From Rhodobacter sp. (GTDB lineage Bacteria > Pseudomonadota > Alphaproteobacteria > Rhodobacterales > Rhodobacteraceae), in NCBI GenBank assembly GCA_027484985.1, contig JAIXRW010000055.1, positions 1 through 64,000 of the forward strand: a stretch of DNA of 64,000 bases, given 5' to 3'. Shown in pieces: positions 27,560-46,358 of the stretch. The translations under genes and the position numbers were made by a program. Each line of letters begins with the position of its first letter. Within the stretch, counting starts at the first letter, position 1. The notes beneath the pieces were generated by a model, which saw only the letters and a list, made by a program, of their open reading frames with translations, ran no database searches and was not told the DNA's origin.

Positions 27560-27560
27560 G

Positions 27561-28511: not shown

Positions 28512-30020
28512 ATGGCAGATGAAAGCCACCCCCCGGTTGCCGCTTCGTCGGCGCGGGGAAGCCTGTCCTGTTTCGGCATCCGTCAGGGCGATTTGCTGCG
28601 CGACTTCGGCCAATGGGCGCGGCTGCATCTGGGCATGACGCGGCTTGTCTATGTGGCTCCGTCGCCCGCGCGGCTGCGAAAGCCCGCCTTTCTGGCCGGA
28701 AAGGGCGCGTTCGAGGTGATACCCGCCGCCGAGATGGGGTTTGAACGGGTGCCGATCTCGCTGCGCGCGGTGGGGCGGGCAATGGCCGACCGGCTTTCGG
28801 GCGCGCCCCAGGGCACGGTCCTTGCGGTTGATATGGGCTGGGGCCTGCAAACCGCCTCGGCCACCGCCAATTTCGAAGGCTGGACCGGCGTTGCCGCCGA
28901 TCTGGCCGAGGCGACAGGCCACACGGTCGTGTCGCTTTACAATCGCAGCCTGCTAATCGACGAACACCTGCTCGCGGCCCTGCGCGGTCATTCTGCCGTG
29001 CTGACCCCCGAAGGCGTGGTGGATAACCCGCATTGGCTGCCCCGCGCGCTGCAAGAAAAGGGCACCCTGCGCGAACATGTGAACCACTGGCTGGGCGGCC
29101 TGTCGCCCAGTCTGATCCGCAACAACCCCTTTGCCGACCGGCACGCCGCCGAAGGCGCCGATCCGATGTGGCTTCTGGGCCGCCGCGCCGAAGAAAAGGT
29201 GATCCCCACCGAAGAAGCCGTGCGCGAACGCTGGAAAATCCGCTGCTTCGGCCGCCTGCGCGTCTATCGCGCCGATGGCAGCCAGATTGACTGGGCCGCA
29301 TCGGGCGGCGCTACGATGAAGACAAAGACCCTGTTTGCCTATCTGTTGCAGCAGGGCGGCAAGGGGGCGCAGACCGATGATCTTGCCGATCTTCTCTGGC
29401 CCGATGCCACCAGCATCGAGGCCGCGCGCAACCGCCTTTACCACACGGTGGGCTGTCTGCGGCAGGCGCTTGATGGCGGGTCAGCCCGGCGCGGGGCCAG
29501 CACGGTCCGGCGCGATGGCAACAGCTATGTGCTTGTCCCGCCCGAACGCAGCTGGCTCGACATCTCGACCTTCGAACAGCTGTGCCGCCAGTCGCAAAGC
29601 CATCTCAAGGCGGGCGATCTGGACGAATCCCTGATCTGCCTGCGCGCGGCAGACCGGCTTTATTCCGGCGACCTGTTCGAAGACATCCCCGCCGAATATG
29701 TCGATGACCAGGAACGTGACTGGTGCTGGACCCGCCGCTACTGGCTGCGCGACATGTATCTCAAGGTGCAGCGCGATGCCGCCCGCATCTACCGCCGCCG
29801 CGCCGACCATTCCGCCGCCCTCAGCCATTGCAACAAGGCCCTCGCACTCGACCCGCTGGCCGAGTTCGCACATGAAGAGGCGATGCAGGTTTTCGCCGCA
29901 CAGGGACGGCGCGAGGCGATCGAACGCCAATACGCGCTCTACCTTGATTCGCTGTCACGATTCGATGACCGCCCGCGCAGCGCGGAACTGGTAAAACTTT
30001 ACCGCAGCCTGACCGCGTGA
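28512..30020 (+). CDS. MEDS-sensor transcriptional activator with winged helix and BTAD
   Basis: This 502-residue regulator has three parts. Residues about 25-190 match the MEDS domain of the DcmR family, with RLVYVAPSPARL, VLAVDMGWGL and SLYNRSLLIDEHLLAALRGH. Residues about 235-320 form an OmpR-like winged helix with FGRLRVYRADG and LLWPDATSIEAARNRLYHTV. The rest is a bacterial transcriptional activator domain (YSGDLFEDIPAEYVDDQ, HCNKALALDPLAEFAHEEAM). It reads toward the P450 gene 122 bases downstream and is the natural candidate regulator of the catabolic genes. The ligand is unknown. The ATG at 28512 begins at the known domain boundary. Confidence 0.83.
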   Translation: MADESHPPVAASSARGSLSCFGIRQGDLLRDFGQWARLHLGMTRLVYVAPSPARLRKPAFLAGKGAFEVIPAAEMGFERVPISLRAVGRAMADRLSGAPQGTVLAVDMGWGLQTASATANFEGWTGVAADLAEATGHTVVSLYNRSLLIDEHLLAALRGHSAVLTPEGVVDNPHWLPRALQEKGTLREHVNHWLGGLSPSLIRNNPFADRHAAEGADPMWLLGRRAEEKVIPTEEAVRERWKIRCFGRLRVYRADGSQIDWAASGGATMKTKTLFAYLLQQGGKGAQTDDLADLLWPDATSIEAARNRLYHTVGCLRQALDGGSARRGASTVRRDGNSYVLVPPERSWLDISTFEQLCRQSQSHLKAGDLDESLICLRAADRLYSGDLFEDIPAEYVDDQERDWCWTRRYWLRDMYLKVQRDAARIYRRRADHSAALSHCNKALALDPLAEFAHEEAMQVFAAQGRREAIERQYALYLDSLSRFDDRPRSAELVKLYRSLTA

Positions 30021-30142
30021 AACAAAATTTCCTGATATGTAACAGCATCTTAACGGCTAAAGAAAAACCAAAGATCACTGTTGCATGTTTGTTTCCAAGC
30101 TGGCCACCGTGCCGGTTCCGCCTTTTCTGTTGGGAGGACAGA
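30021..30142 (+). promoter_or_regulatory. Leader and likely promoter of the cre-like operon
   Basis: This 122-base gap is AT-rich in its first 70 bases and ends with GGAGGA 4 bases before the P450 ATG. It is the likely site of the catabolic operon promoter and of binding by the upstream regulator, although no repeat is obvious. Confidence 0.45.
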
Positions 30143-31393
30143 ATGAACACCATGGCCCCGGCGAAAGCCTGCCCGTTCTCCAATGCTGCCGAAGATTTCG
30201 ACCCCTTCGATCTGACCGATCCGTTCCCCTTTTACGCCTATGCCCGTAACGAGGCGCCGGTGTTCTTTTCCGAAAAGCTGGGCTACTGGGTCGTCTCGCG
30301 CCATGCCGACATCAAGGCGGTGTTCGACGATTGGCAGGTCTTTTCGTCGGAAAACGCGCAGGCCCCGATCCGTCCCTTGGGCGAACCCGGCCGCGCGGTG
30401 ATGAAGGCGGGGGGCTTCACCGCCTATTCCGGCCTGTCGGCCCGCATCCCGCCGGACCACACCCGCATCCGCAAGGTGGCGCAAAGCTGCTTCGGCCCGC
30501 GCCGTTTCAAATCCATCGAACCCCAGATCTATGAAATCGTGAACCGCGAGATCGACAAGTTCGCCCATAAGGGCAGCGCCGATTTCTTCCGCGAATTTGC
30601 CTATGACGTGCCCGCCTATGTGCTGTTCCGTCTGGTCGGCGTGCCCGATGCCGATGTGCCAAAGGTCAAATCATGGGCCGTCAGCCGCGCTGTCCTGACA
30701 TGGGGCGACCTGTCGGACGAAGAACAGATCCCCCATGTTCACAACATGGTGGAATACTGGGCCTATTGCCGCGCCCTTGTCGCCGCCGCCCACCAGAACC
30801 CCGGCGACAACCTGCCCGGCGATATGGTGCGCGCCCAACTGGCCGGCGCTGAAATCAGCGATGACGAAATCGCAGGCGTTCTGTACTCGGTCCTCTTTGC
30901 CGGGCACGAAACCACCACCACCCTTCTGACCAACGCCCTGCGCGAGTCGCTGCTTTCCCGCGACCAGTGGGAAAAACTGACCGCCGACCCCGACAAATGG
31001 ACCGCCGCAACCGAAGAATTCCTGCGCTTTAGCCCCTCGATCGTGGCTTGGCGGCGCCGGGCGCTGCAAGATGCCGAAATCGGCGGGGTCGCCATTCCCA
31101 AGGGGGCGAATATCCTGCTGCTTCTGGGCTCGGCCAACCGCGATGCGACGGTCTTTGATCAGCCTGACCGGCTTGACATTGACCGCCCCAATGCCCGCAA
31201 CCACCTGTCCTTCGGCTATGGCATCCATTTCTGCCTTGGCCAGCAACTGTCCAAGCTGGAATTCGGCATCGCCATGCGCGAACTCGCCCGCCGCCTGCCC
31301 TCGTTGCGGCTGACGCCGGGGCAGGACTTCACCTTCGCGCACAACACCTCGTTCCGGGTGCCCACCGCGCTGCATATCGAATGGGATCTGTGA
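30143..31393 (+). CDS. Cytochrome P450, CreJ-like
   Basis: This 416-residue soluble class I P450 has AGHETTT in helix I (residues 253-259), the K-helix E292-x-x-R295, and FGYGIHFCLGQQ with heme-ligand C364. Ferredoxin and ferredoxin reductase genes lie in the same operon. The genes that follow encode a two-part aryl phosphotransferase, so by analogy with CreJ of Corynebacterium glutamicum it would hydroxylate the methyl group of 4-methylphenyl phosphate. The substrate is inferred from context only. The ATG at 30143 follows a strong ribosome-binding site, and the stop overlaps the next start by one base (TGATG). Confidence 0.9.
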   Translation: MNTMAPAKACPFSNAAEDFDPFDLTDPFPFYAYARNEAPVFFSEKLGYWVVSRHADIKAVFDDWQVFSSENAQAPIRPLGEPGRAVMKAGGFTAYSGLSARIPPDHTRIRKVAQSCFGPRRFKSIEPQIYEIVNREIDKFAHKGSADFFREFAYDVPAYVLFRLVGVPDADVPKVKSWAVSRAVLTWGDLSDEEQIPHVHNMVEYWAYCRALVAAAHQNPGDNLPGDMVRAQLAGAEISDDEIAGVLYSVLFAGHETTTTLLTNALRESLLSRDQWEKLTADPDKWTAATEEFLRFSPSIVAWRRRALQDAEIGGVAIPKGANILLLLGSANRDATVFDQPDRLDIDRPNARNHLSFGYGIHFCLGQQLSKLEFGIAMRELARRLPSLRLTPGQDFTFAHNTSFRVPTALHIEWDL

Positions 31394-32490
31394 TGACCGC
31401 CCCCCTGTCCCCCACCCTTACCGCTCAGGCCGCCATGATCGACGCCCGCTACATCCTGCCCTTCGAAACCGCGCAAGACGCCGACCATCCCCGCATGGGC
31501 GGCAAATGCGCCAGCCTTGCCCGCATGATCGCCATGGGCGTGCCCGTGCCGCGCGGCTTTGCCGTGGCGACCGATGCCTATGCCGCCCATCTGGCGGCGG
31601 GCGGGCTGAATGCCGCGATCCGCGCCCAGCTGTCGCATCTCGACACTCACAACGTCACGGACGAAGAGGCCCGCAGTCAGGCGATCCGCCAACTGGTCAA
31701 TGACCGCGCCATGCCGCCCGAGGTGGAAGCCGCCATCCGTGCAGCCTATGCCCTGATGGCACCGGCCGATGACCTGCCGGTCGCGGTGCGCTCCTCTGCC
31801 ACCGCCGAAGACATGCCCGATGCCAGCTTTGCCGGACAGCAGGACACCTATCTGTGGGTCGTCGGCGCCGATGAGGTGGTGGCCAAGGTCCGCGCCTGCT
31901 GGTCCAGCCTCTTCACCGCCCGCGCCATGAGCTACCGTGCCGACCATGACCTCGGCCAGATCGAGGTGCTGATGGCCGTGGCCGTGCAGGAAATGGTCGA
32001 TGCCCGCAGCGCGGGCGTGGCCATGACGCTTGATCCCATCAACGGCGATCGCACCAAGATCGTGATCGATGCCTCTTGGGGCCTTGGCGAAAGCGTGGTG
32101 TCGGGCGAAATCACCCCCGACAACTTCCTTGTCGAAAAGGTGCTGATGCAGGTGCAAAAGCGCAAGATTTCCGTCAAGACCCACGAAATCATCGCCGACC
32201 CCGCCGCCCGCTGCACCGTCGACCGCGAAGTCGAGGCCGATCGCCAGTCGCAGCCCAGCCTGTCGGATGACGAGGTGATCGCCGTGGCGCAACTGGCGCG
32301 GCGGCTGGAAAAGGCCATCGGCGGGCCGCAAGACCTTGAATGGGCGATTGACCGTCAGGGTCGTCTGGTCGCGCTGCAATGCCGGCCCGAAACGGTCTGG
32401 AGCCAGAAAAAGGCCGCACCGCAAAGCTTTGCCATGGGGATCGAAGGCGTGCTCGGCACGCTGATGGCCCCGATCCAGAACAAAAACTGA
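31393..32490 (+). CDS. PEP synthase N-terminal-like ATP-binding subunit of aryl phosphate synthase
   Basis: This 365-residue protein matches the ATP-grasp half of PEP synthase/pyruvate phosphate dikinase: RMGGKCASLARMIAMGVPVP, VAVRSSATAEDMPDASFAGQ, VQEMVDARSAGVAMTLDP, WGLGESVVSGEITPD and LVALQCRPETVW. It lacks the swivelling histidine and PEP domains, which lie in or are replaced by the next gene. The same split is known for phenylphosphate synthase (PpsB) and for 4-methylphenyl phosphate synthase (CreHI). It should use ATP to phosphorylate the histidine of the partner, which then passes phosphate to a phenol. Confidence 0.85.
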   Translation: MTAPLSPTLTAQAAMIDARYILPFETAQDADHPRMGGKCASLARMIAMGVPVPRGFAVATDAYAAHLAAGGLNAAIRAQLSHLDTHNVTDEEARSQAIRQLVNDRAMPPEVEAAIRAAYALMAPADDLPVAVRSSATAEDMPDASFAGQQDTYLWVVGADEVVAKVRACWSSLFTARAMSYRADHDLGQIEVLMAVAVQEMVDARSAGVAMTLDPINGDRTKIVIDASWGLGESVVSGEITPDNFLVEKVLMQVQKRKISVKTHEIIADPAARCTVDREVEADRQSQPSLSDDEVIAVAQLARRLEKAIGGPQDLEWAIDRQGRLVALQCRPETVWSQKKAAPQSFAMGIEGVLGTLMAPIQNKN

Positions 32491-32522
32491 CCGCCATAAC
32501 GTTTCTCGGGGAGGAGAGACCC

Positions 32523-34337
32523 ATGACTGCACGCACGAGTTTTCCAAGCGCCTATGACCTTGCCGCACCGGCGGGGGCCGAGGCGTGGCGCGACCTGTAT
32601 CCCTATTACCTGATGTTCGCCGACAACCGCCGCGCCGAAGAAGATGGCAAGTTCTGGTTCTGCGACAGCCAGCACTGGCCCAACCCCTTCAAGCCCTTTG
32701 ACGCCGTGACGGTGGAATATGCGGTCAAATGCCTTGGCCAGTATAACACCCGCCATTACCTTGTGCCGCCCGCCAATGGCGTCGATTTCCGCATCCACAA
32801 CGGCTATGTCTATATGTCGCCCGTCGGCGTCGCGCCCGAAAACATCGGCCCCCGCGTGCCGCAATTCATGGACCGCGCAGGCCATTATTTCATGAACTGG
32901 AACAGCCTGCTCGATCAGTGGCTGGTCAAGGTCAAGGCCAACATCGCCGAGATGGAGGCGCTGCGCTTCGACGACCTGCCCGAGGTGGTGCCGGTCGAAT
33001 GGGTCAAGGAAGGCCGCGGTCTCGACAACACCGTCCCGCTGTCGGAAGCCTATGACAAGGCGATCCAGCTGCTTTACCGGACGTGGAACTACCATTTCGA
33101 ATTCCTCAACCTCGGTTATGCCGCCTATCTCGATTTCTTCGGCTTCATGAAATCGCAGTTTCCCACCATCTCCGACCAGTCCATCGCCAAAATGGTGCAG
33201 GGCGTGGACAGCGATCTGTTCCGCCCCGATGACGAGTTGAAGAAACTCGCCAAACTCGCGGTTTCGTCAGGCCTGGCCGCGCATCTGTCGGCCGGTTCGG
33301 TCGATCAGGTTCTGGCCGCGATGGCGGGCAGCGATGCAGGACGCGCTTGGGTTGCCGCATGGGAAGGCGCGAAAGACCCGTGGTTCAACTTTACCTCGGG
33401 CAACGGCTTCTATTCGGATGACAAATACTGGATCGAGCATCTCGACATCCCGATGGGCTATATCCGCGACTACGCCGCCCGCGTGCAAAAGGGCGACGAG
33501 ATTGACCGCCCCACCGCCCAGATCGCGGCCGAGCGTGACCGCATCACCGCCGAATACCGCGACCTTCTCGATGCCGAGGCGCAGGGCGCCTTTGACGGCA
33601 AGCTGGGTCTGGCACGGACCGTGTTCCCTTACGTCGAAAACCACAATTTCTACATCGAACATTGGTCGATGTCGGTGTTCTGGCGCAAGATGCGCGAACT
33701 GTCGGCCCTGTTCCACCGCGCAGGCTTCTGGGAAAACGCCGATGACATGTTCTACCTCAACCGCAACGAAGTGCGCGACGCGCTCTTTGATCTTGGCATG
33801 GGTTGGGGTGTCGGGGCGCCTGCCACCGGCCCGACCTATTGGCCTGCGGAAATCAAGCGCCGCAAGGCGATCCTTGCCGCCCTGCAATCGGCCCCGCCGC
33901 AGCCCGCGCTGAACACCCCGCCTGCGGTGATCACCGAACCCTTCACCATCATGCTGTGGGGCATCACCACCGATGCCGTGCAGAAATGGCTTGTCGGGTC
34001 CAGCGACTCGACCAAGCTCGAAGGCATGGCCGCCTCGCCCGGCGTGGTCGAAGGCCGCGCGCGGGTGATCCGCTCGGCCAGCGACCTTGGCCTGATCCAA
34101 GAGGGCGAAATCCTGGTCACCCCGGTCACGGCCCCCAGCTGGGCGCCCGTCTTCGGCAAGATCAAGGCCACCGTCACCGATATCGGCGGCATGATGAGCC
34201 ACGCCGCCATCGTCTGCCGCGAATACGGCCTTCCGGCCGTGACCGGCACAGGCACCGCGTCCAGCACCATCAAGACCGGGCAGATGCTGCGCGTCGATGG
34301 CACCACGGGCGAGGTGACGATCCTGTCGGCCGCCTGA
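32523..34337 (+). CDS. Phosphohistidine-domain subunit of aryl phosphate synthase, PpsA/CreH-like
   Basis: This 604-residue protein ends in a PEP-utiliser mobile domain with VVEGRARVIRSASDL and DIGGMMSHAAIVCREYGLPAV, whose histidine should carry phosphate. The first 490 residues are unlike PEP synthase and resemble the large subunit of phenylphosphate synthase; this part should bind the phenolic acceptor. GGGGAGGAGAG precedes the ATG at 32523. Length and gene order next to the ATP-binding subunit support a two-component kinase that converts a cresol or phenol to its phosphate ester. Confidence 0.83.
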   Translation: MTARTSFPSAYDLAAPAGAEAWRDLYPYYLMFADNRRAEEDGKFWFCDSQHWPNPFKPFDAVTVEYAVKCLGQYNTRHYLVPPANGVDFRIHNGYVYMSPVGVAPENIGPRVPQFMDRAGHYFMNWNSLLDQWLVKVKANIAEMEALRFDDLPEVVPVEWVKEGRGLDNTVPLSEAYDKAIQLLYRTWNYHFEFLNLGYAAYLDFFGFMKSQFPTISDQSIAKMVQGVDSDLFRPDDELKKLAKLAVSSGLAAHLSAGSVDQVLAAMAGSDAGRAWVAAWEGAKDPWFNFTSGNGFYSDDKYWIEHLDIPMGYIRDYAARVQKGDEIDRPTAQIAAERDRITAEYRDLLDAEAQGAFDGKLGLARTVFPYVENHNFYIEHWSMSVFWRKMRELSALFHRAGFWENADDMFYLNRNEVRDALFDLGMGWGVGAPATGPTYWPAEIKRRKAILAALQSAPPQPALNTPPAVITEPFTIMLWGITTDAVQKWLVGSSDSTKLEGMAASPGVVEGRARVIRSASDLGLIQEGEILVTPVTAPSWAPVFGKIKATVTDIGGMMSHAAIVCREYGLPAVTGTGTASSTIKTGQMLRVDGTTGEVTILSAA

Positions 34338-34345
34338 ACCAACCC

Positions 34346-34377
34346 GAACGGGCCGCCGCCACCACGGCGGCCCGTTC
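34346..34377. terminator. Intra-operonic hairpin
   Basis: A perfect 13-base stem (34346-34358 with 34365-34377) with a 6-base loop lies 8 bases after the phosphotransferase subunit stop. There is no U-tract. It may lower expression of the downstream genes or protect the upstream mRNA. Confidence 0.6.
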
Positions 34378-34421
34378 CCCCCGACGCCCCAACCGCCGTC
34401 CCGATGCCGCAAGGAAGCGCC

Positions 34422-35024
34422 ATGCAGATGCCCGCCCCCCCCACCGCCCGTTACGATGCCGTCTGGCGGCGAGCCGAACCCTACATGCGCGCGCGCAAGA
34501 ACGATGTGCATGTGCCGCTTTCCTTTGACTGGGCGCAGCGCCTTCTGGCCGCGCACCCCGAGGCAGATGCCGACATCGTCTCGCTGGCCATCCTGCTGCA
34601 CGATATCGGCTGGTATTCCATCGACATGGAAGACATCATTGAAAAAGGCTTTGGCCCCAATATGATGCAATCCGATGTTCGCTTTCTGCACGAAAGCGAA
34701 GGCGTCCGCCTGTCGCGCCCCGTGCTGGAAGAAACCGGCTGGGGCGAAGATACCATCCGCGCCGTGGCCGAAATCATCGACGGCCATGATACTCGCCCCC
34801 ATCCCCGCCACCTGAACGACCGGCTGGTCCGCGATGCCGACAAGCTGTGGCGCTTTTCCGTCACCGGCGTTTCTGTCGCCTGCGACTGGTTCAAGATGAC
34901 CCCGCGCCAATATGCCGACCGGCTGGAACATCAGGTCGCCCAACTGGAAACCGAAACCGGCCGCGCCTGGGCCGCGCAGGAATTGCGCGCCACCCGTGCC
35001 GCGTTGATGCTGCATGTGATCTGA
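34422..35024 (+). CDS. HD-domain phosphohydrolase, first copy
   Basis: This 200-residue HD-superfamily protein has H30, the H60-D61 pair in LLHDIGWYS, further histidines near 90 and 122 (IIDGHDTRP), and D140 in RDADKLWRF, which would bind divalent metal. In the cre pathway of C. glutamicum an aryl-phosphate hydrolase (CreD) removes phosphate after P450 oxidation, and this protein is a candidate for that step. A second, related HD protein lies at 36476-37066. AAGGAAG lies 4-10 bases before the ATG at 34422, which decides the start over an ATG at 34404. Confidence 0.82.
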   Translation: MQMPAPPTARYDAVWRRAEPYMRARKNDVHVPLSFDWAQRLLAAHPEADADIVSLAILLHDIGWYSIDMEDIIEKGFGPNMMQSDVRFLHESEGVRLSRPVLEETGWGEDTIRAVAEIIDGHDTRPHPRHLNDRLVRDADKLWRFSVTGVSVACDWFKMTPRQYADRLEHQVAQLETETGRAWAAQELRATRAALMLHVI

Positions 35025-35036
35025 AGGACAAAGCCG

Positions 35037-36479
35037 ATGGAAATGTTCATCGACGGCTGCTGGAAACCTGCGGTTTCCGGCGCGACCCAGCCTGTCACCA
35101 ACCCCACGACCGGCGCGATCATCGACACGGTTCCCACCGGCGATGAACAGGATGCCGATATCGCCATCCGCGCCGCCGACCGGGCGCTGGCGTCATGGCG
35201 CGCCGTCCCCGTGGCCGAACGCGCCCGCCTGCAAAAGCGCGCGGCACAGTTGATGCGCGAAAATGCCGACCGGATCGGGCGCGTCCTCACCTCGGAACTC
35301 GGCCGCCCCGTGGCCGCCGCGATCACGGAAATCCAGCGCTCCGCCGACCTGCTCGATGTCTATGCCGAAGAAGGCCTGCGCCTGCATGACGAGGTGATTG
35401 TCAGCCAGCCCGGCGAAAAGATCATGGTGCGCCGCGAACCCGTGGGCGTCGTGGTCGCCATCACGCCCTTCAATTATCCCATCACCCTTTTGTGCTTCAA
35501 ATTGGGCGCAGCCCTGATCGCGGGCTGCACCGTGGTCGCCAAACCGGCCGAGGATACGCCGCTTTCCACCCTGCTGCTGGCCGAACTGTTCCATCAGGCG
35601 GGCTTTCCGGCGGGCTGCTTCAACGTCGTCACCGGGCGCGGGCGCGGGATCGGCATGGCCATGGTCAACCACCCCATCCCCGGCAAGGTCGCCTTCACCG
35701 GCGGCACGGCGGCGGGCAAGGCCATCGCGGCCGCCGCCGCAGGCACGGTCAAGCGCGTGACGCTGGAACTGGGCGGCCAAAGCCCCGCCATCATCTGCGC
35801 CGATGCCGATCTTGCCAAGGCCGCCGCCGCCATCGCCCGCCACGGTTTCGCCAATTCCGGCCAGTTCTGCTACCGCGTGAACCGCGTCTATGTGGAACGG
35901 CCCGCCTATGACGCCTTCCTGTCCGCCCTTCTGACCGAAGTCGCCAAGATCACCGTAGGCGATGGCCAGACCGACCCCGTGACCATGGGCCCGATGGTCA
36001 ATGCCAAGATCTTCGGCAATGCCTTTGGCCAGATCGCCGATGCCCGCGCCAAGGGCGCCCGCATCTGCTGCGGCGGCGACAGGCTGTCGGGCGGCATCTA
36101 TGACGGCGGCTATTTCCTGCCGCCCACCGTCATCGCCGATACTGACCATTCCATGCAGATCATGACCGAAGAAACCTTTGGTCCCGTGCTTGGCATCATG
36201 TCCGTTGAAAGCCCCGCACAGGCGCTGCACCTCGCCAATGATACCGTCTATGGCCTTGCCGGATTCGTTTTCAGCGGCAACCTTGCCCGCGGCATGGCGT
36301 TGGCCGAACGCATCAATGCGGGCTCGGTCTGGGTCAATGACATCCACCGCTCGAACCACTCGGCCCCCTTCGGCGGGATGAAGCAATCGGGCATCGGGCG
36401 CGAAAAGGGCCGCTACGGGGTGGAAAGCTACCTCGAATACAAGACCCTCTATCTGACCTATGACGAGGCGCTGGCATGA
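35037..36479 (+). CDS. NAD(P)-dependent aldehyde dehydrogenase, CreC-like
   Basis: This 480-residue aldehyde dehydrogenase has the catalytic pair E244 (LELGGQSP) and C278 (NSGQFCYRVNR), the cofactor segment ITPFNYPITL and the C-terminal SNHSAPFGGMKQSG. In this operon it would oxidise 4-hydroxybenzaldehyde to 4-hydroxybenzoate, the substrate of the nearby PobA. GAAGGAC lies before the ATG at 35037. It sits between the two HD-protein genes and overlaps the second by 4 bases. The substrate is inferred from context. Confidence 0.92.
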   Translation: MEMFIDGCWKPAVSGATQPVTNPTTGAIIDTVPTGDEQDADIAIRAADRALASWRAVPVAERARLQKRAAQLMRENADRIGRVLTSELGRPVAAAITEIQRSADLLDVYAEEGLRLHDEVIVSQPGEKIMVRREPVGVVVAITPFNYPITLLCFKLGAALIAGCTVVAKPAEDTPLSTLLLAELFHQAGFPAGCFNVVTGRGRGIGMAMVNHPIPGKVAFTGGTAAGKAIAAAAAGTVKRVTLELGGQSPAIICADADLAKAAAAIARHGFANSGQFCYRVNRVYVERPAYDAFLSALLTEVAKITVGDGQTDPVTMGPMVNAKIFGNAFGQIADARAKGARICCGGDRLSGGIYDGGYFLPPTVIADTDHSMQIMTEETFGPVLGIMSVESPAQALHLANDTVYGLAGFVFSGNLARGMALAERINAGSVWVNDIHRSNHSAPFGGMKQSGIGREKGRYGVESYLEYKTLYLTYDEALA

Positions 36480-37066
36480 CCCCCCGCGACCTTGCACTGT
36501 GGCAGGCGGCGCGCCCGTGGCTGGATGTGCGCTCGAACGATGTGCATACGCTGATTGCATGGCGTCTGGCCCGCACGCTGCTTGCGCTGCGCCCCGGTGC
36601 CGATGAAAGCGTGGTCCTGCCCGCAATCATCCTGCACGATACCGGCTGGAAGAAGATGCCACAGGACAAGCTGGCGCTGGCCGTGGGGCCCAAACCGCAA
36701 TTCCCCGAACTCCAGCGCGACCACGAAGTGGCGGGGGTCGCGATCGGGCGCGATATTCTGCACCATCTGGGGCTGGGGCTTGATGACGCGGCAATCCTTG
36801 CCATCATCGACGGACATGACACGACCAAGGCCGCCCGCTCGGCCGAAGATGCCATCGTCAAAGATGCCGACAAGCTGTGGCGTTTCACCCCGCACGGGGT
36901 CGAAACCATCGGCGGCTGGTTCCAGACGCCCGCGCCAGAAACGCTGGCGATGCTGGAAGATTTCGTCCTGCCCTCGTTCCTGACGCCCGAAGCGCGGATC
37001 ATGGCGCAGGGTTTTCTGGCCGAAGGCTGGGCCTCGGCCGAACATGAAGAAAGGATGCGGGGATGA
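36476..37066 (+). CDS. HD-domain phosphohydrolase, second copy
   Basis: This 196-residue HD protein keeps H24, H54-D55 in ILHDTGWKK, H83, H114 (IIDGHDTTK) and D132 (KDADKLWRF), aligning with the 34422-35024 protein throughout while differing at most other positions. The two are therefore old paralogs. One could be the aryl-phosphate hydrolase; the other may act on a different phosphate ester or form a hetero-oligomer. It overlaps both the aldehyde dehydrogenase and the SDR gene by 4 bases. Confidence 0.82.
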   Translation: MTPRDLALWQAARPWLDVRSNDVHTLIAWRLARTLLALRPGADESVVLPAIILHDTGWKKMPQDKLALAVGPKPQFPELQRDHEVAGVAIGRDILHHLGLGLDDAAILAIIDGHDTTKAARSAEDAIVKDADKLWRFTPHGVETIGGWFQTPAPETLAMLEDFVLPSFLTPEARIMAQGFLAEGWASAEHEERMRG

Positions 37067-37815
37067 GCGGACTTGATCTTGCAGGCAAACGCGTGGTCGT
37101 CACTGGCGCGGCGGGCGGTCTGGGCCGCGCCTTTGCCCAAGCCTTCGCCCGCGAAGGCGCATCCGTGGTTGCAGCCGATATCAACCTGACCGGCGCACAG
37201 GAAACCGCGGCGCTGATCGGCGGCGCGGCCTTTGCGGCACAGGTGGATGTCACCTCGCAGGTCTCCACGGCGGCACTTGCGGCACAAGCGGCCGAAACCA
37301 TGGGCGGCATCGACGTGCTGGTGAACAACGCCGCCATTTATGCCGGACTCGAACGCAAGGGCTTCGAACAGATCGACGAAACCATCTGGGACCGCGTGAT
37401 GGCCGTCAACGTCAAGGGCCCGTGGCAGATGACCCGCGCCGTAGCACCGCATCTGCGAAAGGCGGGCGGCGGGGCGGTGATCAACGTCTCTTCGGCCACG
37501 GTGATGAGCGGATCACCCGAATGGCTGCACTACGTCAGCTCGAAAGGCGCCGTCATCGCCATGACCCGCGCGCTGGCCCGCGAGCTGGGCAATGACCGCG
37601 TCACCGTCAACGCCCTCGCCCCCGGTTTCACCCTGACCGAGGCAAGCCTTGGCCTGATGGAGGATGCCGCCAGCTATGGCGTCACACGGGGCGCGATCAA
37701 ACGCGCCGCCGGGTCCGACGACATGGTCGGTGCGGCGCTGTTCCTTGCCTCACCTCTGGCCGGTTTCATCACCGGACAGACGATCATCATCGATGGCGGA
37801 CGCCAGTTCCTGTAA
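37063..37815 (+). CDS. Short-chain dehydrogenase/reductase, CreG-like
   Basis: This 250-residue classical SDR has the cofactor motif TGAAGGLGRAF near residue 15, VNNAAIY, a catalytic serine in INVSSATV, and YVSSKGAVIAM with the Tyr-x3-Lys pair. It ends in FITGQTIIIDGG. In the predicted pathway it would oxidise 4-hydroxybenzyl alcohol to the aldehyde. It lies between the second HD gene (ATGA overlap) and the ferredoxin gene. Activity on the alcohol is inferred from the cluster. Confidence 0.9.
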   Translation: MSGLDLAGKRVVVTGAAGGLGRAFAQAFAREGASVVAADINLTGAQETAALIGGAAFAAQVDVTSQVSTAALAAQAAETMGGIDVLVNNAAIYAGLERKGFEQIDETIWDRVMAVNVKGPWQMTRAVAPHLRKAGGGAVINVSSATVMSGSPEWLHYVSSKGAVIAMTRALARELGNDRVTVNALAPGFTLTEASLGLMEDAASYGVTRGAIKRAAGSDDMVGAALFLASPLAGFITGQTIIIDGGRQFL

Positions 37816-37824
37816 GGTTAGCCC

Positions 37825-38133
37825 ATGCCCACAATCACCTTTGTCGAACCCGATGGCACCCGTCGGGATGTTGCCGCACACCCCGGCGAAAGCCTGATGG
37901 CCGCCGCCACCCGCGCCAATGTCGCGGGCATCATCGCCGAATGTGGCGGCAGCGCGATGTGCGCGACCTGCCATTGCTACCTTGTCGCGGGCACCCTGCC
38001 CGAAGCCGAACCGCTCGAGGCTGAAACCCTTGAATTCGTCGCCCGCAACACCCGCGCAACCAGCCGCCTGTCCTGTCAGATCACCGTGACCGACACCATG
38101 GAAGGGCTTGTCTTGCAGGTTGCCCCGCAATGA
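37825..38133 (+). CDS. 2Fe-2S ferredoxin, putidaredoxin type, CreF-like
   Basis: This 102-residue ferredoxin has cluster ligands C40, C46, C49 and C84, the C-x5-C-x2-C-x34-C spacing of vertebrate/putidaredoxin-type proteins that serve P450s. ECGGSAMCATCHCY is the core motif; C51 is an extra cysteine. It should pass electrons from the adjacent reductase to the P450 at 30143-31393. The stop overlaps the reductase start in an ATGA. Confidence 0.95.
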   Translation: MPTITFVEPDGTRRDVAAHPGESLMAAATRANVAGIIAECGGSAMCATCHCYLVAGTLPEAEPLEAETLEFVARNTRATSRLSCQITVTDTMEGLVLQVAPQ

Positions 38134-39335
38134 GCGGCGTTGTCATCATCGGGGCGGGCCATGCGGGCAGCCAACTGGCCGTATCGCTGCGGGCCGAAGG
38201 CTATGCCGGCGCGGTGACACTGATCGATGCATCCGATGCCCTGCCCTATCACAAGCCCCCGCTGTCCAAGACCTTCCTGAAAGACCCCGCTGCCCTGCCC
38301 CAACCGCTGCGCGCGGCGTCGGCCTATAAGGCCGCGGGCGTGACCCGTCTGACCGGAACCGTCACCGCCATCGATACCGCCGCGCAAACCGTCACCCTGC
38401 ACGGCGCGGCGCTGGATTATGACCATCTCGTTCTGGCAACCGGTGCGCGCAACCGGATGCTGCCCGATCTTGCAGGGGCCGCGAATGTCCATTCCCTGCG
38501 CGACCTTGCCGATGCCGAACGCCTTCGCGCCGCACTCGCGGATGCCGCGCATGTGGTGGTGATCGGCGGGGGCTTCATCGGGCTGGAATCGGCCGCCGCC
38601 CTTGCCGCCATGGGCAAAACCGTCACCGTGCTCGAATCCGCCCCCCGCGTGCTGGCCCGGGTTGCAGCCCCCGAAACCTCGGCGCGGGTCGAAGCCACGC
38701 TTGCCGGTCTGGGCGTGACGATCCGCACGGGTTTTTCCGCAGGCGGCTTTACGCGCCAAGGCGACCGCATCCACGCCGTGCAGGGGGCACAGGATACCGT
38801 CCCCTGCGACCTGCTGCTTGTCGGCATCGGCGCGCAGGCTGACACCGCGCTTGCCCGTGCGGCGGGCATCGCCTGCAATCAGGGCATCCTGACCGACAGC
38901 CATCTTGCCACCAGCGCGCCCCATGTCTGGGCGATAGGCGATGTTGCCGAAACCCCGCACTGGCAGGCCGATGCGCCGTTGCGGGTGGAAAGCGTGCAAA
39001 ACGCCACCGATCAGGCCCGCCATCTGGCACGCCATCTTGCCGGCGCGGCCCCCGCCGCGTTCTGCACCGTGCCGTGGTTCTGGTCCGATATCGGCCCGCT
39101 GAAACTGCAAATCGCAGGTCTCGCCCTTGGTGCCGACCGGCGCGTTCTGCGCGACGATGGCGCGCGTCTGGCCGTGTTCCATCTGGCGGGGGATCGTCTG
39201 GTATCGGTCGAGACATTGAACAGCCCCGCCGATCACATGATCGCCCGCCAATTGCTCGACGCCGGACTGACCCCGCCCGATGCATTCATGCAGGATGGCG
39301 CCCCCGCCATGAAGGCGTGGCTGGCCCAAGCCTGA
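38130..39335 (+). CDS. FAD/NAD(P)H ferredoxin reductase, CreE-like
   Basis: This 401-residue flavoprotein is of the putidaredoxin reductase type. VIIGAGHAGSQLAVSL binds FAD near residue 4, VVVIGGGFIGLESAAALAAM binds NAD(P)H near 145, and VWAIGDVAETPHWQ is the second FAD motif. It completes a three-part P450 electron chain with the ferredoxin and P450. It is the last gene of the rightward operon and is followed by a strong bidirectional terminator. Confidence 0.94.
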   Translation: MSGVVIIGAGHAGSQLAVSLRAEGYAGAVTLIDASDALPYHKPPLSKTFLKDPAALPQPLRAASAYKAAGVTRLTGTVTAIDTAAQTVTLHGAALDYDHLVLATGARNRMLPDLAGAANVHSLRDLADAERLRAALADAAHVVVIGGGFIGLESAAALAAMGKTVTVLESAPRVLARVAAPETSARVEATLAGLGVTIRTGFSAGGFTRQGDRIHAVQGAQDTVPCDLLLVGIGAQADTALARAAGIACNQGILTDSHLATSAPHVWAIGDVAETPHWQADAPLRVESVQNATDQARHLARHLAGAAPAAFCTVPWFWSDIGPLKLQIAGLALGADRRVLRDDGARLAVFHLAGDRLVSVETLNSPADHMIARQLLDAGLTPPDAFMQDGAPAMKAWLAQA

Positions 39336-39346
39336 ACCCTACGGCA

Positions 39347-39386: not shown

Positions 39387-39398
39387 TTGCGCGGCCCC

Positions 39399-41477
<2,079 letters not shown>

Positions 41478-41481
<4 letters not shown>

Positions 41482-42797
41482 TCGCCCGCCCCCACGCAGG
41501 CCGCAAAGGCGCGCGCCTCGTCGGGGGCGGTGCCAAGGCCGCCGCTGGTGGTGATATCCAGCGCGGGAAAGGCCGCAGCCACCAGTTCCCCCAGCGCAGG
41601 CCCCCCCGGTTTTGCCTTGGCGCACAGCTTTTTCACGGCCTCTTGCGCCTCGGGGCGCGGGATGTGGCGCGACAGGGCAAAGGTCAGTTCTTCCGCGCGG
41701 ATCAGGCCGCTGCCATCATCCAAGCCCCGCGCCATCGCCGCCGCATCGGGCCGCAGGCGCTGCACCAGATCGACCGCCAGCGCCAGGGCGCGTCCGGTCA
41801 GGATGCACATTTGCGGCAGGCTCAGCCACTCGGTGAACCATGCCGCCCCGTCGCGCTGCTGGCGGTGCAGCCCCGCCCCCTGCATCGCCCCCGCCAGCGC
41901 GATGACCTGCCGCGCCAGCGCGACCAGCACCGAAGGTCCGACCGGATTCTGCTTCTGCGGCATGGTCGATGACGCGCCCGCGCCCGAAATCGCCACCTCG
42001 GCCACTCCACCTTGGGTCAGCAGGATCAGATCCTCGCCCATCTTGCCAAGGGTTGCGGTCAGCCCCGCCATCCACGCGGCAAAGGCGCCGATACGGTCGC
42101 GTTCGGCATGCCAGCTATGGCCCGGATCGGTCAGCCCCAGCGCCTGCGCCAGACCGGCCCGCACCGCCGGACCCTCGGCCCCCATGGCCGACAGCGTCCC
42201 CGCCGCGCCCGACAGCGACACACATGCCAGTTCGTCCCGCATCCCGGCCAGCCTTGCACGGTGGCGCAGCACCGGATGCCCCCATCCCGCCACCACCGCG
42301 CCGAAACTGGTGGGCGTTGCCACCTGACCATAGGTGCGCGCCGCCATCGGCAGGTCGGCATGGGCCAGCGCCAACCGGCCAAGCTGGCGCGCCAGGGCGT
42401 CAAGCCGCCCGTCCCACAGCGCGATCACACGGCGCAGGCGCAGCGCCTGCCCCGTTTCCATGATATCCTGACTGGTCGCACCCCAATGCAGGTAACGCGC
42501 ATGGTCCGGCGCCTCCATCGCCTTGCGAAAGGCGGTCACAAGCGCGGGCACCGGCACGCCATTCACCGCCGTCTCGGCCGCCAGCGCGGCGGGGTCGATC
42601 AGCACCTCGCGCGCGGCACGGTCGATAAAGGCGGCAGCCGTTTCAGGAATCAGCCCCAGCTGGCCCTGCACCCGCGCCAAAGCCCCCTCGACCAGCAGCA
42701 TGGCGCGGATCTCGGCGCTGTCGGTGAACAGGGCGGCGGTCTCGTCATCGCTGAAAAGACCACGGTATAGGGGGCTGTCGGCGGGCGATGCGGGCAT
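41478..42797 (-). CDS. pcaB: 3-carboxy-cis,cis-muconate cycloisomerase
   Basis: This 439-residue fumarase/aspartase superfamily enzyme lactonises 3-carboxymuconate to 4-carboxymuconolactone. GASSTMPQKQNPVGPS is the superfamily signature, here with the serine loop. HWGATSQDIMETGQ near residue 155 is the second conserved region. It is the last gene of the leftward pcaDCHGB run, 69 bases after pcaG. Confidence 0.94.
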
Positions 42798-42866
42798 GGG
42801 GGGGCCTTTGGTCAGAAAGCGGACAGGGCGGGGATGCCCCCTGCCCTGCCCTGCGTCAAGCCGCGA

Positions 42867-43484
42867 TCAGATGTCGAAGAACACCGTTTCCTGCGGACCT
42901 TGCAGATGGATGTCGAAACTATAGGCACCGGGCCCGACCTTGCGCGCAAGCAGCGTTGCCAGCCGTTCCCGATGCTCGATCCGCGCCAGTACGGGGCAGG
43001 CATCATTCGCCTCGCCTTCGTCATCGAAATAGATGCGCGTCTGCAAGCCAAGGTTCACCCCCCGCGCCACCAGCCAGACCGATATATGCGGCGCCATCAT
43101 CCGCCCGTCGGGAAAGGGCACGCGCCCGGGCTTGACCGTCTCAAGCCGCCAGATGCCGCTGTCGAAATCCGCCGCCACCCGCGCCCAGCCCGTCACCGCC
43201 GGATCGGCCGCGCCGCGCGGGTCATTGGCGGGGTAAATCCCCGCCGCATCGGCCTGCCAAGTCTCGAACACCACATCGCGCAGCACCATACCCGCCCCGT
43301 CCAGCACGCGCCCCGTCAGCACGATCCGCTCGCCCTTGGCGCCTTCGGAAACGGGCGACAGCCCAAGGTCCACCGGATAGATGCCCGCAATGCCCAGCCG
43401 GTTCGGCGTCAGCCCGATATGCACATAGGGCCCCGCCGTCTGCGACGGGCTTTCCTTCAGATAGTCCAGCCGCTGCACCATCAC
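42867..43484 (-). CDS. pcaG: Protocatechuate 3,4-dioxygenase alpha subunit
   Basis: This 205-residue subunit pairs with PcaH to cleave protocatechuate between its hydroxyl groups. [17 protein letters not shown] at the N-terminus, [13 protein letters not shown] and [14 protein letters not shown] are typical. It lacks the full set of iron ligands found in the beta subunit, as expected for alpha chains. Its ATG overlaps the pcaH stop by 4 bases, which favours equal synthesis of the two chains. Confidence 0.95.
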
Positions 43485-44218
43485 ATCCCCTCCTTGCGGT
43501 TCTCGAAGAACGATTGCCGCCGCCCTCGCAAGACGATGTCAAACCGGTAGGCAAGGCAATCCATCGGGATCGCATGGTTCATGTCCAGCGCCGCAACCAG
43601 CACGTCGATGGCCTCTTGCCGCGCCAGCGTGTTGACGATGGGGCATAGCGGGATCAGCGGATCGCCCTCGAAATAGTTCTGCGTGATCAGCCGCTGCCCG
43701 AAACCCGACCCAAAGACCGACCAGTGAATATGCATCGGCCGCCAGTTGTTCACATGGTTCGGCCAGGGATAGGCGCCGGGGCGGATGGTCAGGAATTCAT
43801 AGCGCCCGTCCGGCCCCGTTAGGGTGCGCCCGCAGCCGCCGAAATTCGGGTCCAGCGGGGCCAGATAGCCGTCTTTCTTGTGGCGATACCGCCCGCCCGC
43901 ATTGGCCTGCCACATCTCGACCAGCACACCCGGCACGCCGCGCCCGTTCTCGTCCAGCACGCGGCCATGCATGATGATCCGCTCGCCAATCGCGGGCTGG
44001 CCGGTAAAGTTCATCACCAGATTGTTGTCCAGCTCGCCGATCATCGACTGGCCAAAAGCGGGGCCCGTCTCTTCCGACAAGGTTGACCCCAGCGGGACCA
44101 GCGGCCGCTGCGGCGCGCGGGTCATCGAGGTCTTGTAGCCCGGCGTATAGGCCGCAGGATGCCAGTCGCGATCGCGAAAGAACAACGGTCCGTGCTGGCT
44201 GGCTTGGGTCTGGGTCAT
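43481..44218 (-). CDS. pcaH: Protocatechuate 3,4-dioxygenase beta subunit
   Basis: This 245-residue subunit carries the non-heme Fe(III) site. Y111 (GGRYRHKK), Y150 (GAYPWPNH), H163 and H165 (RPMHIHW) have the same spacing as Tyr408, Tyr447, His460 and His462 of Pseudomonas putida Pca[12 protein letters not shown] and [13 protein letters not shown] are further family segments. It overlaps pcaC and pcaG by 4 bases each. Confidence 0.96.
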
Positions 44219-44598
44219 GTCCGTTCGGCCTCCATCGCGGCGAAAGTCTCCTTGGCGATCTTCATGGCATGGTTCGCCCGCGGCACGCCCGCATAGACCG
44301 CCACATGCAACAGCACCTCGGCCACATCCTCGGGCGTGGCGCCGGTATTGGCGGTTGCGCGCAGATGCAAAGCAAGCTCGTGGTCATTGCCCAGCCCCGC
44401 CAGCAGGGCGATGGTCAGCATCGACCGTTCGCGCGGGGTGATCGTGTCGCGCGACCAGACCAGCCCCCACGCGCCTTCGGTGATCAGGGTCTGAAACGGC
44501 GTGTCGAATGGGGTTCTGGCCGCTTCGGCGCGGTTGACATGGGCATCGCCCAGCACGCGGCGGCGCGTGGCCATGCCTTGGCTGTATCGGTCGGTCAT
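44215..44598 (-). CDS. pcaC: 4-carboxymuconolactone decarboxylase
   Basis: This 127-residue CMD-family protein decarboxylates 4-carboxymuconolactone to beta-ketoadipate enol-lactone. [17 protein letters not shown] and [19 protein letters not shown] are family motifs. It is a stand-alone protein, not the PcaL fusion found in some actinobacteria. The ATG at 44598 overlaps the pcaD stop. Confidence 0.94.
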
Positions 44599-45368
44599 CG
44601 TGCCTGTTCCACCAGAAAGGGGGCCACCAGCGCGGCCCATGCGGCAGGGGTTTCGACGCAGGGCAGATGCCCCGCGCCCGCGATCACGTGAAAGGCGGCA
44701 CCGGCAATCCGGTCTGCCGTTCCGCGTACCAGATCGGGCGGCGATGCCCCGTCCTGCCCGCCCGCAATGGCCAGCACCGGCAGGCGCAGACGCGCGGCTT
44801 CCCCGGTCAGGTCGGCCGCGGCGATGGCGCCACAAGCGGCGACGTAGCCTTCCGCATCGGTTCGCACCAGCATGTTGCGCCAAAGCGCCAGTTCCGGCGT
44901 CGCGCGAAAGGCAGGGGCGAACCAGCGCTCCATCACCGCATCCGCGATGCTGCCCATCCCGCCCGCCCGCACGGCGGCGATGCGGGCGGCCCAAGCCTCG
45001 GGCGTGCCCATCCGTGCGGCGGTGTTCGACAGGACCAGCGCCCGCACCAGATCGGGGCGCCGCGCCGCCAGCGCCTGCCCGATCATCCCGCCGATCGACA
45101 GCCCGACAAAGACCACCGGCCCCTCTGCCACCGCCTCGATCAGCGCCGCGGCATCCTCGGCGAAACCGTCAATCCCGTCCTGCGGCCCGCGATCCGACAG
45201 GCCATGTCCGCGCTTGTCAAAGCGGATGGGGCGGCAACCGGGCAAAAGCGGCAACACCGCATCCCACAGCCGCAGATCGGTTCCCAGCGAATTGGCAAAC
45301 ACGACAGCGGGGCCCGCGCCATCGATCCGGTAGTGCATCGCGCCCCAAGGGCGGGTCAGAACTTGCAT
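44595..45368 (-). CDS. pcaD: 3-oxoadipate enol-lactonase
   Basis: This 257-residue alpha/beta hydrolase opens the enol-lactone to beta-ketoadipate. The nucleophile S91 lies in VFVGLSIGGMIGQAL, RFDKRGHGLS precedes it, and the C-terminal GAGHLPCVETP holds the catalytic histidine. It leads pcaDCHGB. GGAGG lies about 9 bases before the ATG at 45368. The next steps (PcaIJ, PcaF) are not encoded in the window. Confidence 0.95.
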   Translation of the reverse strand: MQVLTRPWGAMHYRIDGAGPAVVFANSLGTDLRLWDAVLPLLPGCRPIRFDKRGHGLSDRGPQDGIDGFAEDAAALIEAVAEGPVVFVGLSIGGMIGQALAARRPDLVRALVLSNTAARMGTPEAWAARIAAVRAGGMGSIADAVMERWFAPAFRATPELALWRNMLVRTDAEGYVAACGAIAAADLTGEAARLRLPVLAIAGGQDGASPPDLVRGTADRIAGAAFHVIAGAGHLPCVETPAAWAALVAPFLVEQAR

Positions 45369-45434
45369 GCTATCCTCCGTCCATCCATAATCTGACAGAG
45401 CGGTTCCGACATTGATAATGCAAAATGGGCCAAG
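45369..45434. promoter_or_regulatory. pcaD-pcaQ divergent promoter region
   Basis: This 66-base region must hold both promoters and the PcaQ operator. An AT-rich stretch around 45409-45425 is the best candidate. I could not find a full ATAACC-N4-GGTTAA PcaQ box; one ATAACC half-site lies just inside the pcaQ reading frame near 45438. Confidence 0.5.
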
Positions 45435-46358
45435 ATGAATAACCATTTCGCTATGCATCCGGCCATCAAGCTGCGCCATATCCGCGCCTTTCTCAATATT
45501 GCCGCCGATGGCACCCTGTCGGCGGTGGCGCGGGCGCAGGGCATCACGCAACCCGCCCTGTCGCGCACCCTGGCCGAGCTGGAAAGCCTGCTCGGCCAGC
45601 CGCTGTTCCTGCGGCAGGGGCGCCGGCTGGTGCTGACCGAACAGGGCGTGCTGTTCCGCCGCCATGCGCTGGCCGGGCTACAGGCGCTCGAGGCCGGTTT
45701 CGCCGCCCTCCGCCCCGGTCAGGGCGGGTCGATCCGCGCAGGCGTGCTGCCCACGGTCGCCACGCGCTTTTTCCCGCAGGTCGCCATGCGCTTTTTCCAA
45801 CTGCGACCCGACATCACCCTTTCTGTCGAAACCGGCCCCCATCATTATCTCATCCGCCAACTTCGCGACGGCGCGATCGACCTGATGATCGGCCGCCTTC
45901 CCGCCGCCTCGGATATGTCGGGTCTTGGCTTTGACCATTTGTATGAAGAAGACGTGGTTCTGGTCGGGCGCGCGGGGCATCCCATGGCCCATCTTCCGCT
46001 GGCCGCGGTGCTGTCTGCCGTTCCGCTGATCCTGCCGCCCGCCACCGCGCTGATCCGGCCCGCGGTCGATACCTATCTTGCCGCGCTCGGGCTGAACGGG
46101 TTGCGGCCCGCACTGGAAACCGTGTCACTGGCGCTGGGTCGGGGAATTTGTCTCGCCTCTGACGCGCTGTGGTTCATCTCGCGCGGGGTGGTGGTTGAAG
46201 AACTGGCCAACGGCACAATGGCCGAACGCCCGACAGGGGCGCGTTTCCTGTCGGGCGCGGTCGGCATCACCCGCCAGCAGGGCGACCCTGCCCCCGGCCT
46301 TGCCGTGCTGGAAACCATCGCGCGCGAGGTTGCGGCAGGCCTGAACACCCCGCCATAA
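45435..46358 (+). CDS. pcaQ: LysR-family regulator PcaQ
   Basis: This 307-residue LysR regulator has the N-terminal helix-turn-helix in KLRHIRAFLNIAADGTLSAV and ITQPALSRTLAELESLLGQ. A periplasmic-binding-like effector domain follows, with VLPTVATRFFPQ and DLMIGRLPAASDMSG. Divergence from pcaD and overall sequence point to PcaQ, which activates pcaDCHGB with beta-carboxymuconate-type inducers. ATG 45435 is used; ATG 45453 is possible. It ends 8 bases from the convergent PP-loop gene. Confidence 0.9.
   Translation: MNNHFAMHPAIKLRHIRAFLNIAADGTLSAVARAQGITQPALSRTLAELESLLGQPLFLRQGRRLVLTEQGVLFRRHALAGLQALEAGFAALRPGQGGSIRAGVLPTVATRFFPQVAMRFFQLRPDITLSVETGPHHYLIRQLRDGAIDLMIGRLPAASDMSGLGFDHLYEEDVVLVGRAGHPMAHLPLAAVLSAVPLILPPATALIRPAVDTYLAALGLNGLRPALETVSLALGRGICLASDALWFISRGVVVEELANGTMAERPTGARFLSGAVGITRQQGDPAPGLAVLETIAREVAAGLNTPP

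Follow-up and report, generated by a model that had tools for sequence, protein, structure and literature searches.

To our knowledge, phosphorylation-first oxidation of alkylphenols has been worked out only in Corynebacterium glutamicum. Its Cre gene set (cg0637–cg0645, creC–creJ) comprises a CreJ-type cytochrome P450 (P450), a dikinase pair, a ferredoxin, a reductase, an HD-domain phosphohydrolase, a short-chain dehydrogenase/reductase (SDR) and an aldehyde dehydrogenase (ALDH). PpsAB of Thauera aromatica belongs to anaerobic phenol catabolism, in which no P450 is known to take part. In the Hpe pathway of Rhodococcus rhodochrous GD02, as described in PMC9618137 and PMC12167813, the two-component phenolic dikinase HpeHI likewise starts catabolism, but the route relies on carboxylation and not on P450 oxidation. 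Here we describe a locus at 28512–46358 of a 64,000-nucleotide stretch of Rhodobacter sp. DNA (assembly GCA_027484985.1, contig JAIXRW010000055.1, positions 1 to 64,000; hereafter the window), in which a Cre-type module is joined to the pob-pca genes of the protocatechuate branch. The locus probably encodes a route in which a 4-alkylphenol, with 4-cresol the likeliest, is first phosphorylated, then oxidized to yield 4-hydroxybenzoate, and finally taken to beta-ketoadipate.

The locus consists of two gene blocks (Table 1), a cre-type block entirely on the plus strand and a pob-pca block with mixed strands, in the order pobA (minus), AraC-family regulator (plus), pcaB, pcaG, pcaH, pcaC and pcaD (minus) and pcaQ (plus). 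Compared to C. glutamicum Cre, the first block has the same kinds of enzymes and the same P450-kinase-kinase order (J-I-H). However, behind a regulator with a BTAD domain it runs J-I-H-HD1-ALDH-HD2-SDR-Fdx-FdR (Fdx, ferredoxin; FdR, ferredoxin reductase) rather than J-I-H-G-F-E-D-C, it contains a second HD protein, and pob-pca is attached. The original prediction had matched the block to the C. glutamicum set. This held for the P450, the kinase pair, an HD protein, the SDR, the ferredoxin and the reductase, but the order (which is not taken as defining), the second HD protein, the ALDH, whose orthology is uncertain, and the regulator differ. The genes that it named are all present as open frames close to where it placed them, each with a family profile match; its start for the P450, at 30143, agrees with the congeners, in whose frames stops lie upstream, and the start of the second kinase half, at 32523, is preceded by a ribosome site. 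The spacings from the P450 to the reductase (-13, 32, 66, 12, -4, -4, 9 and -4 bases) are as would be expected in one operon. All nine cre enzyme genes recur in collinear order, at 77–95% identity, in two congeners (G010 and G016) and in the metagenome-assembled genome (MAG) SKW120, and the gene set is therefore not a chance assembly.

The P450 matched best the PDB chains 5xjn/7ccf and 5gwe (E-value about 1e-143; next chain 3.5e-84), which we take to be CreJ, presumably a member of family CYP288. It is 51–58% identical to actinobacterial orthologues, with 58 and 56% for those on two Rhodococcus plasmids. Two CYP288B P450s are tabulated among alphaproteobacteria in PMC8197338. As C. glutamicum was absent from the scan results described below, the genome G384 was used as a stand-in. 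Over a stretch of 100 residues, its P450 shares 92% identity with the best PDB (CreJ) chain, and its cluster order, J-I-H-G-F-E-D-C, is that of the published cg0645–cg0637 set (creJ–creC), with reversed gene numbering (PMC7764795). Comparison of 30 of 32 kinase-linked P450s (L040 and L125 were omitted for frame breaks) with 15 of 22 unlinked ones showed 44 residues that are at least 93% conserved in the former and at most 20% in the latter. They include Q73, S96, G97, S99 and R101, and we infer that some of the 44 may bind phosphate.

The swivel half of the kinase scored 1077.7 bits against NF006150 (cut-off 650) and has Ser-His at 559–560, with His560 as the catalytic residue. According to PMC12167813, the residue preceding the catalytic His is Ser in CreH and PpsA and Cys in HpeH; at this position the window kinase is like CreH and PpsA and unlike HpeH, and with PpsAB it would also share the dikinase mechanism. 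An assignment as phosphoenolpyruvate (PEP) synthase was rejected, as only the PPDK_N and mobile domains match and the PEP-binding C-terminal domain does not. The original prediction had allowed that the P450 and the kinase might match families with other proven substrates; both group with Cre-type clusters instead.

In the loci examined, this P450 and this kinase are found together wherever the P450 is close to that of the window. A genome collection was scanned with a P450 alignment, through two peptide patterns only, and 37 loci were obtained. Both kinase halves lie beside the P450 in all 16 loci with at least 51% P450 identity and in none of the 21 with at most 38%. After removal of duplicates (L097 = L016, L098 = L034, L099 = L038; L027–L029 are contigs of G010, G015 and G016), 32 distinct cre genomes or plasmids were obtained, made up of the 16 scan loci, the window, two plasmid clusters and 13 Rhodococcus-family genomes from a draw of 401. 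Each of the 32 cre P450s (32 of 32) thus has homology to both kinase halves next to it, and not one of the 28 P450s that are more distant does; for six of these 28, the flanks covered were 1.5 kb only. The second kinase half runs past the contig end in G459 and is in two pieces in L039 and G266. G295 (L126), with a P450 of 43–44% identity and no kinase beside it, was not counted as cre. A draw across the class covered 384 other alphaproteobacterial genomes. Six of them encode a P450 that matches at E 1e-90 or better, in every case with 37–40% identity and with no kinase homology in the 1.5-kb flanks, and none of the 384 had one above 40%; at most four candidates per genome were scored in these draws, with misses possible.

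Two operon types were distinguished. Type A, with the order J-I-H-G-F-E-D-C, was found in Rhodococcus, Microtetraspora, Corynebacterium-like and other Rhodococcus-family members. The cre clusters on Rhodococcus plasmids (R. oxybenzonivorans pRB98 and R. ruber Y14) encode, under generic annotations only, the same eight kinds of cre enzyme as the window; unlike the window, they show the C. glutamicum-type order, an IclR regulator (seen in these two annotated clusters) and, in the R. ruber cluster, HD2 upstream. The plasmid clusters stand beside toluene-monooxygenase-type genes (L016 4386–8870, L017 18999–21158), not pob-pca, which suggests that toluene may be converted through p-cresol to 4-hydroxybenzoate on one Rhodococcus plasmid.

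Type B, with the order of the window behind a BTAD regulator, was found in Rhodobacteraceae, Rhizobium alvei, Kaistia and two Runella, including the named strains Rhizobium alvei TNR-22, Kaistia dalseonensis B6-8 and Runella defluvii DSM 17976. In the Rhodobacteraceae MAG NORP153 (L041), whose contig breaks off early, only the regulator, the P450, the kinases, one HD gene and the SDR are seen. The type-B order also occurs in a Flavobacteriales MAG and in Nitritalea, where an AraC-family gene takes the upstream place of the BTAD regulator and a second P450 and an alpha/beta hydrolase are present. In a concatenated tree of 29 of the 32 loci (L040, L117 and L125 omitted), actinobacterial and type-B loci were separated with a support of 100, and Bacteroidota fell on the type-B side under midpoint rooting. 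The window locus is a predicted reordered variant of the Cre pathway that is common to Rhizobium, Kaistia and Runella. In the Bacteroidota cre clusters that contain it, the second P450 is 29% identical to that of the window and is accompanied by the alpha/beta hydrolase (L039 10004–11131, 12845–13555; L040 17612–18559, 20456–21163).

The pobA and pcaDCHGB genes adjoin the cre block, as originally predicted, and this is borne out by profile matches. PobA, PcaH, PcaC, PcaD and PcaG exceed curated cut-offs, while PcaB and PcaQ fall short of theirs (Table 1). With PcaB below its cut-off, the protocatechuate-branch set of pobA, pcaGH, pcaB, pcaC and pcaD is complete at the locus. The same genome carries pcaF (G000:C2:89009–90199; 660.4 bits) and, 0.7 kb from it, a pcaI/scoA-family subunit (C2:90935–91609; 342.9 bits), both over cut-off. 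The proposal that 4-cresol could run to beta-ketoadipate from one locus is supported as far as the gene set goes, and 4-cresol itself is the likeliest substrate.

The joining of cre to pob-pca is not peculiar to the lineage of the window. Nine of the 32 loci have both pobA and pcaGH close to cre, in about seven arrangements: the window, G010, G016, Kaistia dalseonensis, a Runella MAG and the Rhodococcus-family genomes G135, G267, G389 and G115. Cre and pob-pca are 1.6 kb apart in the Runella MAG and 0.1–2.1 kb apart in the four Rhodococcus-family genomes; in Kaistia dalseonensis, 10.1 kb with a branched-chain-type ABC transporter separate pcaQ from the regulator. In the Runella MAG and the four Rhodococcus-family genomes, PobA and PcaH pass the NF006091 and TIGR02422 cut-offs, and all five PobA proteins are under the stricter TIGR02360 cut-off. 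A tenth locus, in MAG SKW120, has pobA and the AraC gene inverted beside cre, with no pca gene on the stretch read. Flank inspection was uneven owing to contig ends, with a usual reach of about 10–16 kb. A rough binomial calculation gives a chance probability of 2.4e-9 for at least 7 of 32 if genomes are 3 Mb in size, and a smaller value if they are larger; given relatedness and ascertainment, it is indicative only. Rhizobium alvei and Runella defluvii have pobA on a contig other than that of cre, and no pobA match at E 1e-60 was found in the Flavobacteriales MAG or Nitritalea. An accident of one lineage was rejected in view of the recurrence in Alphaproteobacteria, the Rhodococcus family and Bacteroidota. 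From the number of arrangements in these groups, cre and pob-pca have evidently been brought together repeatedly by unrelated bacteria, and this repeated joining is comparative evidence for 4-hydroxybenzoate as the probable natural product.

In the proposed pathway, the two-subunit dikinase would phosphorylate the phenolic hydroxyl of 4-cresol, or of a similar 4-alkylphenol, via a phosphohistidine. The P450, with electrons from the ferredoxin and its reductase, would then oxidize the para-methyl group of the aryl phosphate, and the SDR and the ALDH would help to convert the alcohol and the aldehyde to the acid. The phosphate would be stripped off by HD1, with HD2 probably acting on another intermediate, to give 4-hydroxybenzoate. 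PobA would convert this to protocatechuate, PcaGH, PcaB, PcaC and PcaD would lead to beta-ketoadipate, and PcaF and a CoA transferase encoded on another contig would complete the pathway.

The assignments of the accessory enzymes differ in firmness. The HD, ALDH and reductase trees were built from a chosen subset of fewer than 29 loci. In the midpoint-rooted HD tree, two old paralogues were seen: HD1 clusters with the type-A operon HD at the CreD position, from 13 actinobacterial cre clusters (C. glutamicum CreD itself not among them), and HD2 forms its own clade, which includes copies upstream of the P450 in 11 actinobacterial loci. No HD2 gene was found close to L119 and L123, two Corynebacterium-like clusters. 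The HD residues are invariant in both proteins. A PDB search returned no match for HD1 and one chance-level match for HD2; Cas3 and YqeK were rejected as identities (20.9 and 19.5 bits against cut-offs of 43.45 and 70.15). The accessible parts of the Cre-pathway literature yielded no description of HD2. The window ALDH is 37–40% identical to the actinobacterial cluster ALDH, and the ALDH tree, with a support of only 0.73, does not resolve its placement relative to CreC; the type-B ALDH need not be a CreC orthologue. Identities to actinobacterial clusters are 56–63% for the SDR, 42–53% for the ferredoxin and 33–39% for the reductase. By position and similarity, these three appear to be CreG, CreF and CreE, the orthology of the reductase being only putative. 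PDB searches with the ALDH and the SDR found generic relatives only.

The regulator has a BTAD domain (E 6e-16) and an AfsR/EmbR-like C-terminal half. Its N-terminal half resembles MEDS (DcmR sensory) weakly, in 5 of 9 homologues and under cut-off (best E 6e-4; window 0.008). An AlphaFold model was of moderate quality (mean predicted local distance difference test score, pLDDT, 71; predicted template modelling score, pTM, 0.44), and Foldseek matched its C-terminal half to AfsR/EmbR at E 5e-7 to 1e-5, with weak RecA-like matches at about 5e-3 for the remainder. The regulator gene precedes the P450 in L027–L033, L035 and L041, and its product is likely a substrate-responsive regulator. We would tentatively extend these observations to a type-B cre that is a distinct form of the pathway, a reading that is possible at best: HD1 and HD2 would act at two oxidation levels (for example, HD2 at the alcohol or aldehyde and HD1 at the acid), the ALDH would be non-orthologous, a new regulator class would sense cresol or its phosphate through the MEDS-like domain and drive the BTAD activator, and cre-pob-pca would have been assembled repeatedly as one transferable unit in three phyla.

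Several points weigh against a 4-cresol pathway at this locus. The substrate, the activity, the order of the steps, the role of HD2 and the regulation are what we infer from sequence. HpeHI is promiscuous, and with cresol its phosphorylation rate is about one quarter of the highest observed (PMC12167813), and an engineered CreHIJ-CreD system oxidizes a range of p- and m-alkylphenols (PMC9549646), so that kinase homology does not fix the substrate. In the stretches inspected, 23 of the 32 cre loci have no pobA plus pcaGH. In the congener G015, cre lies beside unrelated genes with pob-pca on another contig, and eight of the nine cre enzyme genes were found, the ferredoxin gene being cut short by about 200 bases relative to the window (L022, about 12817–12838). 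The G016 P450 (L024 18035–19282) has AGHATTTT in place of AGHETTTT in the I-helix, a Glu-to-Ala change that is either real or an assembly error. The Corynebacterium-like ALDH at the CreC position scores another own-genome ALDH higher (318.7 against 292.7 bits).

The same breadth of CreHIJ-CreD and HpeHI is what favours a different physiological substrate for the same machinery, either another para-alkylphenol or a lignin-derived 4-methylphenol such as creosol, with 4-cresol as a side substrate. This seems unlikely, as the repeated linkage to pobA across distinct lineages indicates a C7 product without a methoxyl group, 4-hydroxybenzoate. The kinase pair is also homologous to HpeHI and PpsAB (PMC9618137, PMC12167813), and an alphaproteobacterial plasmid of R. 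leguminosarum carries a kinase-carboxylase cluster, so an Hpe or anaerobic Pps/Ppc pathway with carboxylation of the aryl phosphate was considered. It is highly improbable: no biotin carboxylase or carboxylase subunit (HpeCBA) was found among the main open reading frames (ORFs) scanned from 28.3 to 48.7 kb, the rest of the genome not being searched, and a P450 with its own redox partners stands in place of a carboxylase, with Ser and not Cys before the catalytic His. With its BTAD domain and AfsR-like fold, the regulator could be of the SARP type and control a P450-kinase cluster for the biosynthesis of a secondary metabolite, but the ORFs scanned include no assembly-line genes, the same set is catabolic in C. 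glutamicum (PMC7764795) and pob-pca is directly linked, which leaves this explanation next to no probability. The R. leguminosarum plasmid, pRlBT01c (L018 7980–15082), encodes an aryl-dikinase-like pair, a biotin carboxylase, a biotin/lipoyl protein and a HAD hydrolase, and this cluster resembles the Hpe pathway.

Within the genus of the window, the kinase is present in 4 of 19 genomes (its own, G010, G015 and G016), and it was found in none of 42 further relatives. The pobA gene is present in 8 of the 19. The window's genome, G010 and G016 have the cre-linked copy only, and G001, G007, G011, G015 and G018 carry pobA in another type of pob-pca locus, which is cut by a contig end in G001. Like the window, this locus of other species has pobA, pcaB, pcaG, pcaH and pcaD (mostly with pcaC and a LysR gene) beside an AraC-family gene, but its order is AraC-PobA-PcaQ-PcaDCHGB, it is 42–74% identical, and it lies away from cre. 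DNA homology with G010 and G016 ends sharply at both borders of the block, with none in the flanks fetched; the two are sisters with similar upstream ORFs and count as one comparison. No convincing repeats were found at the block borders, and a mobile mechanism is for this reason putative only.

Table 1. Predicted features of the cre-pob-pca locus, in window coordinates
Feature	Coordinates	Strand	Evidence or remark
Regulator, BTAD/TPR, winged helix and N-terminal alpha/beta domain	28512..30020	+	longest ORF begins at 28326
CreJ-type cytochrome P450, heme Cys364	30143..31393	+	PDB chain matches, E 1e-143
Aryl dikinase ATP-grasp-type subunit (CreI position)	31381..32490	+	PPDK_N, E 1.6e-107; alternative start 31393
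Aryl dikinase substrate and swivel subunit (CreH position), His560	32523..34337	+	NF006150, PEP-utilizers domain, ggaggag site
HD1 phosphohydrolase, probable CreD orthologue	34404..35024	+	PF01966
Aldehyde dehydrogenase, candidate for CreC role	35037..36479	+	PF00171, E 3e-160
HD2, second conserved HD phosphohydrolase	36476..37066	+	PF01966
SDR alcohol dehydrogenase (CreG position)	37063..37815	+	similarity to actinobacterial CreG-position SDRs (56-63%)
[2Fe-2S] ferredoxin (CreF position), C-x5-C-x2-C ... C	37825..38133	+	PF00111
FAD ferredoxin reductase (CreE position)	38130..39335	+	PF07992, PF14759; NCBIfam reductases below cut-off
pobA, 4-hydroxybenzoate 3-monooxygenase	39399..40562	-	TIGR02360, 654.8 bits (cut-off 538.7)
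AraC-family regulator, probable pobR	40462..41481	+	partial HpaA/AraC matches below cut-off; start probably near 40567; collinear alignment with G016 begins at residue 36
pcaB	41478..42797	-	TIGR02426, 316.1 bits (cut-off 355.75)
pcaG, protocatechuate 3,4-dioxygenase alpha	42867..43484	-	TIGR02423, 226.3 bits (cut-off 126.25)
pcaH, protocatechuate 3,4-dioxygenase beta	43481..44218	-	TIGR02422, 342.7 bits (cut-off 296.4)
pcaC (domain part of ORF 44215-44994)	44215..44604	-	TIGR02425, 186.3 bits (cut-off 155.7), ORF residues 134-254
pcaD (domain part of ORF 44595-45665)	44595..45341	-	TIGR02427, 288.8 bits (cut-off 255.85), ORF residues 110-351
pcaQ-like LysR regulator	45435..46358	+	TIGR02424, 283.0 bits, slightly under cut-off 303.8
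DNA homology extent with congeners G010 and G016	28557..46311	.	dc-megablast

The module is embedded in a surface-polysaccharide locus (window 24529–27577 to the left and 47667–61831 to the right). The left flank encodes a GDP-mannose dehydratase, an epimerase and a GT11 protein, and the right flank pyruvyl transferases, a Kdo-transferase-like protein, GT25, a GT29 (sialyltransferase-like) match, a Wzy-like ligase, GT2 and a sulfotransferase. The guanine-plus-cytosine fraction drops to 0.51–0.53 at 50–54 kb.

The original prediction was not aware of such an arrangement in alphaproteobacteria. In agreement with this, a search of the open-licence literature that did not extend to the Cre papers of Li et al. 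(2014) and Du et al. (2016) found no cre in Alphaproteobacteria or Bacteroidota and no cre-pob-pca cluster described. The window locus is in all appearance a variant of a known pathway that is spread more widely than assumed and to which pob-pca has been attached repeatedly. As the system crosses phyla and one of its two operon types occurs in named strains, the mechanism becomes testable outside Actinomycetota, and compact p-cresol-to-beta-ketoadipate cassettes are useful for the conversion of lignin and pollutants.

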